The notes beneath the pieces are model-generated. The model was not told where the DNA came from. It searched no databases and saw nothing but the letters and a program-made list of their open reading frames with translations. 64,000 bases of DNA, from the NCBI RefSeq assembly GCF_003143775.1, contig NZ_QFRJ01000001.1:434001-498000 (forward strand). The letters run 5' to 3'. Position 1 is the first letter of the stretch, and every line of letters begins with the position of its first letter. A program made the translations under genes and the position numbers. This DNA is from Brumimicrobium oceani. Its GTDB lineage: Bacteria > Bacteroidota > Bacteroidia > Flavobacteriales_D > Crocinitomicaceae. Positions 45,894-58,602 of this stretch are shown here, piece after piece.

Positions 45894-45927
45894 AAAATGC
45901 TGTTCCAATTTGGAGCAGCATTTTTTT
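45894..45927 (+). terminator. Terminator of aconitase
   Basis: ATGCTGTTCCAA pairs with TTGGAGCAGCAT (one G-U pair) and is followed by a T run. Confidence 0.85.
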
Positions 45928-46054
45928 GTAGGCTTGCCCAATTTGGGCATGCCTACAAAAACAATTTGGGCATGCCTACAAAAACAATTTGGGCATGCCT
46001 ACAAAAACAATTTGGGCATGCCTACAAAAAAAAAATTGGGCATGCCTACAAATA
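45927..46054. repeat. Tandem 23-bp repeat with palindromic core (about 5 copies) and an inverted leading half-copy
   Basis: The unit CAATTTGGGCATGCCTACAAAAA begins at 45939, 45962, 45985 and 46008 (the last with one extra A) and in degenerate form at 46032; a worn sixth copy may start at 46055. Each unit contains the palindrome GGCATGCC. Just before the first copy, TGTAGGCTTGCCCAA (45927-45941) is an inverted copy of TTGGGCATGCCTACA with one mismatch. The copies are nearly identical, so the array is recent or kept uniform. It fills most of the aconitase-radC gap. Any ORF through it is an artefact of the repeat. Confidence 0.9.
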
Positions 46055-46148
46055 AAATTTGGGTATTCCCAATAAAAAACATCACCAACCATTGTGTATT
46101 TCAACTATTTCACTATCTTAATTCTAATAATAACCTAAATTAAGATAA

Positions 46149-52282: not shown

Positions 52283-52870
52283 ATGAAAATTGAATTCGAC
52301 AAAAACAATGGAATAATTCCCGTAATCATTCAAGATGTAAATACTTATGATGTTCTCATGTTTGCCTACATGAACGAAGAAGCTTACGACATTACTTTGA
52401 GAACAAAGGAAGTCACATTTTTCTCTAATGAAAAGCAAGCACTTTGGACAAAAGGTAAGGACAAGAATGCACTTATTTTTCATGGAGTCGAGCTAGACGA
52501 AGACGAGAGGGTATTGCTCATGAAAGTTGAGCCCATTCAAGCAATTGGAGAGGAGGGAAAAATGACTGTTTGGGGAGATACATTTTCTAACCAACATGGA
52601 ATCTTAGAGCAATTAGAGAAGAAGATTAACGATAGAAAATTAAACCCTAAAGACAATTCTTACATATCGAGCTTGTTTGATCGCGGTGAGAATCACATTG
52701 CCGAGAAATTTGGGCAAGAAGCTATTGAAATGATTGTTGATTTAAAGAATAAGGACAAAGAGTTGTTTTCTAAAGAAAGTGCGGATTTATTATTGCATTA
52801 TTTAGTACTGCTAAAGTCGAAAGGGATAACACTGAATGATGTTTTAAAAACGTTAAAGAGCAACAGTTAA
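52283..52870 (+). CDS. HisIE-like fusion with degenerate cyclohydrolase half
   Basis: Residues 1-100 align with PR-AMP cyclohydrolase (HisI): IIPVIIQDVNTYDVLMFAYMNEEA, EVTFFSNEKQALWTKGK. Residues 107-195 align with PR-ATP pyrophosphohydrolase (HisE): SYISSLFDRGENHIAEKFGQEAIE, ESADLLLHYLVLL. In normal HisI three Cys and a His hold the metals (DCD, CHxG, SCF). Here these read DED (72-74), GEEG (89-92) and TVW (95-97), so the cyclohydrolase half should be inactive. HisE keeps most residues but has Gln145 where Glu is usual. No other his genes are near. ATG 52283 fits the HisI N-terminus (MKIEFDKNNG); ATG 52238 would add 15 odd residues. The C-terminal part is duplicated downstream. Confidence 0.8.
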   Translation: MKIEFDKNNGIIPVIIQDVNTYDVLMFAYMNEEAYDITLRTKEVTFFSNEKQALWTKGKDKNALIFHGVELDEDERVLLMKVEPIQAIGEEGKMTVWGDTFSNQHGILEQLEKKINDRKLNPKDNSYISSLFDRGENHIAEKFGQEAIEMIVDLKNKDKELFSKESADLLLHYLVLLKSKGITLNDVLKTLKSNS

Positions 52871-52927
52871 ATAAAACCTAAAACATTTTACAAAATTAAT
52901 TGTAATTAAGTTAAATAAAAAACAAAA

Positions 52928-53218
52928 ATGAAACAAAAAAGCTTATTGATTCTGGTATTTTGCATCGTAACAATCTTTCCTTTACTTTCTCAAAATATCA
53001 CCATCAGCGGGAGCATTACTGACGGTAGGAATGGAGAGGATCTTTTTGGCGCGTCAGTTATAGTTTCTGACATGACGAATACCGGGGCAAAGGCAAATAT
53101 TTATGGTTTTTATTCCCTTTCTATACCAAGCGGTAAGCACCAATTAATTTACAGAAGTTCGGGTTTTGAAGAGCAAATTCTGAATTTAACCTTTACCCAA
53201 GACACTGTAATCAACTAG
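52928..53218 (+). pseudogene. Truncated TonB-receptor N-terminus made by the duplication
   Basis: Identical to the first 96 codons of the receptor at 53530 (signal peptide MKQKSLLILVFCIVTIFPLLSQ and carboxypeptidase-regulatory-like domain), then ends at TAG exactly at the junction (ATC AAC TAG). It retains the same upstream sequence and ATG, so it could still be expressed as a secreted fragment. It is not a functional receptor. Confidence 0.85.
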
Positions 53219-53472
53219 AGAAGAAGATTAACGATAGAAAATTAAACCCTAAAGACAATTCTTACATATCGAGCTTGTTTGATCGCGGTGAGAATCACAT
53301 TGCCGAGAAATTTGGGCAAGAAGCTATTGAAATGATTGTTGATTTAAAGAATAAGGACAAAGAGTTGTTTTCTAAAGAAAGTGCGGATTTATTATTGCAT
53401 TATTTAGTACTGCTAAAGTCGAAAGGGATAACACTGAATGATGTTTTAAAAACGTTAAAGAGCAACAGTTAA
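53216..53472 (+). pseudogene. Truncated HisE-domain fragment made by the duplication
   Basis: Identical to codons 111-195 of the HisIE-like gene, without a start codon or the HisI half. The only in-frame candidate start (TTG at 53275, position of LFDRG) would remove the first helix. Probably not translated. Confidence 0.8.
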
Positions 53473-53529
53473 ATAAAACCTAAAACATTTTACAAAATTA
53501 ATTGTAATTAAGTTAAATAAAAAACAAAA

Positions 53530-55869
53530 ATGAAACAAAAAAGCTTATTGATTCTGGTATTTTGCATCGTAACAATCTTTCCTTTACTTTCTCAAAATAT
53601 CACCATCAGCGGGAGCATTACTGACGGTAGGAATGGAGAGGATCTTTTTGGCGCGTCAGTTATAGTTTCTGACATGACGAATACCGGGGCAAAGGCAAAT
53701 ATTTATGGTTTTTATTCCCTTTCTATACCAAGCGGTAAGCACCAATTAATTTACAGAAGTTCGGGTTTTGAAGAGCAAATTCTGAATTTAACCTTTACCC
53801 AAGACACTGTAATCAACTTAGAGCTTTTCTTGTCTAAAGAAGTGCAGGAATTGGAAGAAGTCAACATAACTTCTAAAAGAACAAACGATAACATAACTTC
53901 TGCTCAAATGGAAGTGACGCGTTTAGATCCTCAGTCGATAAAAACTATCCCTATTTTGTTTGGTGAACAAGATGTAATGAAAACCTTACAGTTAACTCCA
54001 GGTGTCAAAGGTGGAGGAGAAGGGAGTGCTGGCTTTTATGTAAGAGGTGGAGGAGCAGATCAAAATCTTATTCTTTTAGATGAATCTACTGTATATAACG
54101 CCTCTCATTTGTTAGGCTTTTTCTCTGTTTTTAATTCAGATGCCATTAAAGATGTTTCCTTATATAAATCCGGAATACCCGCAGAATATGGTGGAAGAGC
54201 CTCTTCTGTTATGGATGTGCGAATGAGAGACGGAAACAATAAAAACCTTGCAGCGTCTGGTGGAATAGGATTAATTTCATCTCGTTTAACACTGGAAGGA
54301 CCAATTGTAAAGGATAAAAGCTCATTTATTATTTCAGGGAGAAGAAGTTACGCAGATTTATTCTTGGTTTTTGCTCCTGATGAAGACATTAGAGATGCTC
54401 AATTATTTTTCTATGATTTAAACGCTAAAGTAAACTACAAAATCAGTGACAAGGACAGGATCTATCTTTCAGGATATTTTGGAAGAGATAAATTTGCTCT
54501 TAGCGAAGACTTTGGTTTTAATTGGGGGAACAAAACAGGAACTATTCGCTGGAATCATTTATACAACGACAAACTTTTCGTAAATACTTCATTTATTTAC
54601 AGTTCCTTTGATTATGAATTCACTATTGGGCAAGGGGAAGATGGATTTGGAATTCGTTCCTCTATCAGAGATTTCAATCTTAAACAAGATTATAGTTATT
54701 TCTTAAACTCTAATAATAGTCTCAAATTTGGGTTCAATGGAATTCACCACACTTTTGAGCCAGGTGTTTTAGAAAGTGGAGAAAATGTAGGATTCAATCA
54801 AATTGAATTAGATAAACGTCATGCTTTGGAGTTAGGTGCTTATATTCAAAACGAACAAAGTATTGGAAATCGTTGGGCTCTGATGTATGGATTAAGATAT
54901 TCAGGGTTCAATTACATGGGGAAAGGAACAGCCTATGAATTTGCTGAGAATGGAGATATTCTAACTGAAAGATCTTATAGTTCATGGGAATCTATTAAAT
55001 ATTACCAAGGATTTGAACCAAGATTGTCTGCTAGTTTTATCATTAACGAAAGTAATTCAGTAAAAGCCGGATACAACAGAATATTTCAATACATACACCA
55101 GTTAACAAATGCTACAACGAGTAGTCCAACAGATGTATGGGTTCCTACTTCAAATAATGTCAAACCTCAAATAGGTGACCAAATTGCATTAGGTTATTAC
55201 AAAAATTTCAAGAAAGATGAATACCAGGTTTCTGTTGAGACCTATTACAAGTGGTTGCAAAATCAAATCGACTACAAGCCCAATGCAAACTTACTATTGA
55301 ATGGTCAGATTGAGAGAGAACTGGTTTATGGAAAGGGTAAAGCTTACGGAGTTGAATTTCAGCTAAAGAAAACCAAAGGTGCTTTTACTGGTTGGGTAAA
55401 TTACACCTTATCACGCGCTTTGAGATCATTTGATGATATCGATGGAGGAGAGGAGTTTTCTGCAAGACAAGACAGAATTCATGATGTGAATTTAGTTTTA
55501 ACCTATGAAATTAACAAGAAGTTTGTGGTGAGTACAAGCTTCGTTTATTATACCGGCGATGCGGTAACTTTCCCAAGTGCACTTTATGAAATGAATGGTT
55601 ATGAAGTACCCTATGTGGGCAAAAGAAATGCCAACAGACTTCCAGATTACCACAGGTTGGATTTAGGGCTGACATGGTATTTAAAAGAACGAAAAAACTA
55701 CAAACACAATCTGAGTTTCTCCATTTATAATGTTTACAACAGAGAAAATGCATTCTCGGTTAGTTTTGTTGATGATTTCGAAGGAAACACTACAGGACAA
55801 ACACAGGCCGTTCAAACAGCACTCTTTAAAATGATTCCATCAATTACTTACAACTTTAACTTCAAATAA
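53530..55869 (+). CDS. TonB-dependent outer-membrane receptor
   Basis: A 779-residue receptor: signal peptide to about 21, a carboxypeptidase-regulatory-like domain (ITISGSITDGRNGEDLFGASVIV...LSIPSGKHQLIYRSSGF), a plug (PILFGEQDVMKTLQLTPGVKGGGEGSAGFYVRGGGADQNLILLDE) and a 22-strand barrel ending in Phe (YNFNFK with terminal Lys). A short linker helix rich in Glu and Asn precedes the plug. It is not SusC-like in length. The next gene, 2 nt later, is a DUF4249 lipoprotein, a pairing found in many Bacteroidota. The ligand is unknown. Its first 290 nt and the spacer before it are duplicated upstream. Confidence 0.93.
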   Translation: MKQKSLLILVFCIVTIFPLLSQNITISGSITDGRNGEDLFGASVIVSDMTNTGAKANIYGFYSLSIPSGKHQLIYRSSGFEEQILNLTFTQDTVINLELFLSKEVQELEEVNITSKRTNDNITSAQMEVTRLDPQSIKTIPILFGEQDVMKTLQLTPGVKGGGEGSAGFYVRGGGADQNLILLDESTVYNASHLLGFFSVFNSDAIKDVSLYKSGIPAEYGGRASSVMDVRMRDGNNKNLAASGGIGLISSRLTLEGPIVKDKSSFIISGRRSYADLFLVFAPDEDIRDAQLFFYDLNAKVNYKISDKDRIYLSGYFGRDKFALSEDFGFNWGNKTGTIRWNHLYNDKLFVNTSFIYSSFDYEFTIGQGEDGFGIRSSIRDFNLKQDYSYFLNSNNSLKFGFNGIHHTFEPGVLESGENVGFNQIELDKRHALELGAYIQNEQSIGNRWALMYGLRYSGFNYMGKGTAYEFAENGDILTERSYSSWESIKYYQGFEPRLSASFIINESNSVKAGYNRIFQYIHQLTNATTSSPTDVWVPTSNNVKPQIGDQIALGYYKNFKKDEYQVSVETYYKWLQNQIDYKPNANLLLNGQIERELVYGKGKAYGVEFQLKKTKGAFTGWVNYTLSRALRSFDDIDGGEEFSARQDRIHDVNLVLTYEINKKFVVSTSFVYYTGDAVTFPSALYEMNGYEVPYVGKRNANRLPDYHRLDLGLTWYLKERKNYKHNLSFSIYNVYNRENAFSVSFVDDFEGNTTGQTQAVQTALFKMIPSITYNFNFK

Positions 55870-55870
55870 A

Positions 55871-56665
55871 ATGAAAAATATACTTTACATCACATTTTTA
55901 TTTTTGTTAACTGCTACCTCATGTCAAAAAGTGATTGATTTAAAAGTAGATGACACAGAACCAAAGATCGTTTTAGAAGCGAGGTACGACGCAACAAAGG
56001 AAGAGGTTTGGGTTCGAATTTCTAAAACCATTGATGTTTTCTCAGCTGAAAACTATCCACAAATTAAAGGAGCTCAGGTTGAGATTATTGATGAAAATGG
56101 AGTGTCTACTCCACTTGCTGACCAAGGAGATGGGACTTATTTGTTTGAGAACTATGTACCCATCTTTGATAGCGAATATGCAATAAAAATTGTAGTGGAT
56201 GGAGAAACATACGAAGCATCAGATTACTTGAAAAATGTGGTTCCTCTGGATTCATTATCTACTGAATTTCAGGAGGCCTCCGCTTTTTCTGAAGAAGGTT
56301 ATGTTGTTTTCATGAATGCTACAGATCCTTTTGGATCAAACTATTACGGTGCAATTCGTAAAGTAAACGGAGAATACAGAAAAGAATTGGGAGATGAGTT
56401 TCTTTTTGATGATAGCTTTTCTGAAGGAAATACCCAAAGCGTTCCAATCTTCTCAGAGCTCTATCAAGTGGGGGATACAGTCCAAATTGAATTGAATTCT
56501 TACAGTGAAAAAACATATAACTACCTGAATCAATTGAGAGCTATTGCATCAGGGTCAGAAGTTTCTGCTGCACCAGCAAATCCAGTTAATCAATGGTCCA
56601 AAGAAGCACTTGGCCACTTTTCAGCCTTTGGGTATGACACCAAAACAATTATCATTGCGGAATAG
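55871..56665 (+). CDS. DUF4249 lipoprotein, partner of the TonB receptor
   Basis: A 264-residue lipoprotein: signal MKNILYITFLFLLTATSC with lipid Cys at about 18. The DUF4249 opening CQKVIDLKVDDTEPKIVLEA is followed by an Ig-like beta domain (EEVWVRISKTIDVFS, PQIKGAQVEIIDENG) and a region with VPIFSELYQVGDTVQIEL. The C-terminal GHFSAFGYDTKTI is conserved in the family. DUF4249 proteins usually sit right after a TonB receptor and probably cap it at the cell surface like SusD does; this is by analogy. The gene begins 2 nt after the receptor stop, so both are one operon. Confidence 0.88.
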   Translation: MKNILYITFLFLLTATSCQKVIDLKVDDTEPKIVLEARYDATKEEVWVRISKTIDVFSAENYPQIKGAQVEIIDENGVSTPLADQGDGTYLFENYVPIFDSEYAIKIVVDGETYEASDYLKNVVPLDSLSTEFQEASAFSEEGYVVFMNATDPFGSNYYGAIRKVNGEYRKELGDEFLFDDSFSEGNTQSVPIFSELYQVGDTVQIELNSYSEKTYNYLNQLRAIASGSEVSAAPANPVNQWSKEALGHFSAFGYDTKTIIIAE

Positions 56666-58571: not shown

Positions 58572-58602
58572 AAAGCCCAGACAAATTTGTCTGGGCTTTT
58601 TT
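58572..58602 (+). terminator. Terminator of the T9SS protein gene
   Basis: A 28-nt perfect palindrome, AAAGCCCAGACAAA with TTTGTCTGGGCTTT, followed by T. Confidence 0.92.

Follow-up and report, generated by a model that had tools for sequence, protein, structure and literature searches.

A probably recent 602-bp tandem duplication across hisIE and a TonB-dependent receptor gene in Brumimicrobium oceani

Two identical copies of a 602-bp unit lie head-to-tail across the boundary between hisIE and a gene for a TonB-dependent receptor in the draft genome of Brumimicrobium oceani (3.85 Mb, 35 contigs). The best explanation, in which considerable confidence can be placed, is a recent spontaneous tandem duplication with a very short junction, probably without a selected function. 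Exact self-comparison of the window (the whole 64,000-nucleotide stretch of DNA analysed) matched positions 52614–53216 to 53216–53818: 603 bp, identical at an offset of 602 with 0 mismatches, made up of the 602-bp unit plus one T common to both join partners at the junction. The copies are direct and adjacent on the forward strand, copy 1 occupying 52614–53215 and copy 2 53216–53817 (100% identity, the exact match running on to 53818 through the 1-bp microhomology), and at such length a chance match is excluded. The tandem duplication described in an earlier note on this DNA was thereby borne out in both its borders and its identity. Bubble popping in de Bruijn assemblers may mask single-base differences between repeat copies, so the exact identity of the two is a statement about the assembly.

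The second-longest exact direct repeat in the window measured 69 bp, within a 23-bp repeat array, and in the 436 kb of contig C1 sampled (one block of 140 kb and one of 296 kb that contains the window) the 602-bp duplication was the only exact direct repeat longer than 110 bp. Positions 45923–46079, directly after an aconitase-like gene, hold 23-bp tandem copies of CAATTTGGGCATGCCTACAAAAA (four exact, one diverged), the exact core motif of which occurs nowhere else in the genome. With an inverted copy at 45923–45945 that pairs with the tandem copies, this array resembles a multiplied arm of a terminator hairpin. Separately, a perfect 28-bp palindrome at 58572–58599, downstream of the gene for a 591-aa secreted protein, is perhaps a terminator.

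The unit runs from where the HisE domain of hisIE begins, through a 57-bp spacer, to just after codon 96 of the receptor gene. Both parental genes were directly observed to be full-length on the forward strand. Copy 1 completes the bifunctional hisIE (52283–52870; PRA-CH and PRA-PH domains, with PF01502, PF01503 and NCBIfam NF002747 all above cut-off), and copy 2 begins the full 779-aa receptor (53530–55869; carboxypeptidase-regulatory-like and plug domains, PF13715 and PF07715). A gene for a DUF4249 protein (55871–56665, forward strand, PF14054) follows directly and probably forms one operon with the receptor gene. Between the whole parents lie two fragments in different frames, both on the forward strand. 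The first, a truncated receptor ORF of 96 aa (52928–53218), has an apparent signal peptide and most of a CarboxypepD_reg-like domain, and stops short of the end of that domain according to the domain search. The second, a HisE fragment (53216–53472), has no ATG; its sole internal start, a TTG at 53275, would give 65 aa. The earlier note had described just this arrangement, with intact parents, a truncated receptor ending at a TAG made by the junction (53216–53218) and a start-less HisE fragment, and each element was recovered. That the two fragments form one fused product was considered and rejected, as the frames differ and the TAG intervenes. That both parents are whole follows from geometry, because the ends of the tandem duplication lie in two adjacent genes of the same strand, and the survival of hisIE and the receptor gene intact is no sign of selection.

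The novel junction, CAACTAGAGAAGA (53212–53224, forward strand), joins receptor codon 96 to hisIE and so creates the TAG stop. The parent sequences at the break are TAATCAACT followed by TAGAGCTT, and GAGCAAT followed by TAGAGAAG, the break falling between the two parts in each case; their join is ATCAACTAGAGAAG, and the junction reads CAACTAGAG. The proposal that the break sites share short homology held in that both CAACTTAGAG and CAATTAGAG occur there; perfect microhomology, however, amounts to 1 bp (the T), set within an imperfect, gapped similarity of about 10 bp. Among randomly drawn pairs of sites 0.7% did as well or better, and among pairs held at a fixed spacing 1.0%, on a measure picked post hoc, after the site had been seen. 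The join thus has little homology and is accompanied by no long flanking repeat or IS in the window, where no other exact direct repeat exceeds 69 bp; an origin in which long flanking repeats or IS copies recombined was accordingly rejected.

From these features we infer that the duplication most likely arose at a very short junction, through replication slippage or some other non-homologous process, and slipped mispairing at the imperfect CAACTTAGAG/CAATTAGAG homology is a reasonable guess. Since hisIE is complete ahead of the junction and the receptor gene complete beyond it, such a duplication would carry little cost and could persist, the truncated receptor and HisE fragment being its probable by-products. 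Once formed, RecA-mediated recombination between the copies would be expected either to restore a single copy or to expand the locus, and for this reason copy number may vary. A non-homologous first duplication followed by RecA-dependent gain and loss are the two steps described in a review (PMC11721125), and the frequencies and instability of bacterial duplications are summarised elsewhere (PMC3857721). Easy collapse of the repeat and mixed populations, as the earlier note had suggested, are plausible by analogy with this general knowledge of tandem duplications.

Comparison with relatives indicates that the duplication is derived. The junction sequence was absent from 9/9 congeners (its 17-mer occurs once in the host genome), and a second copy of the unit was found in none of the nine. 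In two of them (G001 and G009) hisIE lies immediately upstream of the receptor gene, each single. Most simply, therefore, the single-copy state is the original one and the duplication arose in the host lineage. Full-length relatives of the receptor, 72–92% identical, were present in eight congeners. Across the genus, hisIE adjoins the receptor gene in 3/10 genomes, lies elsewhere in 4/10 and gave no match at E 0.001 in 3/10, from which its distribution seems patchy. A scan of genome contigs, which may leave out the window's own record, matched a single relative, the congener Brumimicrobium sp. 4-911 (NZ_CANNGT010000008.1); the plasmid collection searched gave no match. The identity of the 602 bp could reflect a recent event, copies kept identical by conversion, or an assembler that made them identical. 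Good support for a recent event comes from the match between the copies and from the lack of the duplication in all nine congeners; the duplication is probably recent.

The earlier note had left the choice between a recent event and an assembly artefact, and while the first of these gained support from the relatives, the second lost ground. Under the artefact reading the genome would be single-copy, the second copy having come from contig mis-joining or from a chimeric library molecule. The draft state of the assembly, in 35 contigs, is compatible with this, as is an almost blunt junction whose short, imperfect homology template switching could use, and the same junction could result from a chimeric template arising at the short homology while the library was prepared or amplified. 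However, in the ends of 20 contigs sampled, many pairs had exactly 127 bp in common, as left by a de Bruijn assembler run at k=127, and the contig numbering fits a size-sorted short-read assembly. Because such an assembly needs the junction k-mers to occur in reads, and because the 436 kb sampled contained 0 N bases and no other repeat of comparable size, an artefact of contig joining is unlikely. Assemblers of the de Bruijn type, moreover, tend to under-report tandem copies, and in published benchmarks SPAdes restored true two-copy tandems of roughly this unit size (PMC6052550). An assembly or library artefact is, overall, an unlikely source of the second copy.

The under-reporting of copies bears equally on the possibility of a longer array, in which the cell would carry at least three copies, reduced to two in the assembly, with the same origin as the duplication preferred here. 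In simulations SPAdes output arrays of two to five copies all as two (PMC6052550, Table 5), and ‘two copies’ is therefore a minimum. Nothing in the present data points to more than two, however, and two is the simplest number; a longer array is decidedly unlikely.

Selection for the duplication appears very improbable. It would require that the doubled upstream region raises receptor expression or that the 96-aa fragment, once secreted, plays a part of its own; the arrangement might then serve as a reversible switch. TonB receptors are in contact with the surroundings of the cell and their dosage can matter, and, as the unit holds the sequence directly upstream of the receptor gene, a promoter lying up to about 300 bp from the start would be present twice. 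Promoter and terminator scans, however, found no clear promoter or terminator in the unit, with nothing above shuffles: generic promoter-like sites were no commoner than in shuffled sequence, and the one Bacteroidota-type match, located in hisE, was weak and unconvincing. The suggestion that the doubled upstream region alters receptor expression therefore went unsupported, although such an effect is possible. The absence of the duplication from all nine congeners, and of the end of its own domain from the 96-aa fragment, likewise argue against selection. That the duplication is kept as it reversibly changes receptor expression, the hisIE–receptor region acting as a dosage switch, would be more improbable still.

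A spontaneous duplication of this kind has parallels. As in the short-junction tandem duplications of the literature (PMC11721125, PMC3857721), the copies are identical and head-to-tail, the novel join has little or no homology and the parent genes are kept; RecA-dependent loss would, by analogy, also be expected. In contrast to those cases, the unit copies no gene whole and is under no known selection, and at only 602 bp it is smaller than the 7–13 kb sdrM amplifications (PMC11721125). Closer to hand, 400 kb was sampled from each of three relatives (G013, G007 and G004). The sample from G013, a single-contig genome belonging to the same family, contained an exact tandem duplication of 761 bp (L113:13347–14877). 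The two duplications are alike in the exactness of their copies and in unit size, but that of G013 doubles a whole 188-aa ORF and has a 9-bp repeat, TAACGTTTG, at its borders, neither of which is seen in the 602-bp unit. G007 and G004 contain other repeats, with no exact tandem pair of about this unit size among the best matches listed for their 400 kb each; at about 2142600–2147700 of G007 contig C1 lies an array of 690-bp-period repeats, in which exact stretches reach 1139 bp and which perhaps encodes a large repetitive protein. Such tandem duplications, found in the family as G013 attests, are uncommon per genome, yet not foreign to the group.

The duplication is an event of known kind, an ordinary type of mutation rather than a new system, and we infer that it is most likely neutral and unstable. 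It has little significance beyond this one genome. Overlaps between contig ends can help to judge whether a repeat of this sort is an assembly artefact, and the locus neatly illustrates how a duplication that spans two neighbouring genes spares both and yet produces fragment ORFs, which may be listed as genes in an annotation.
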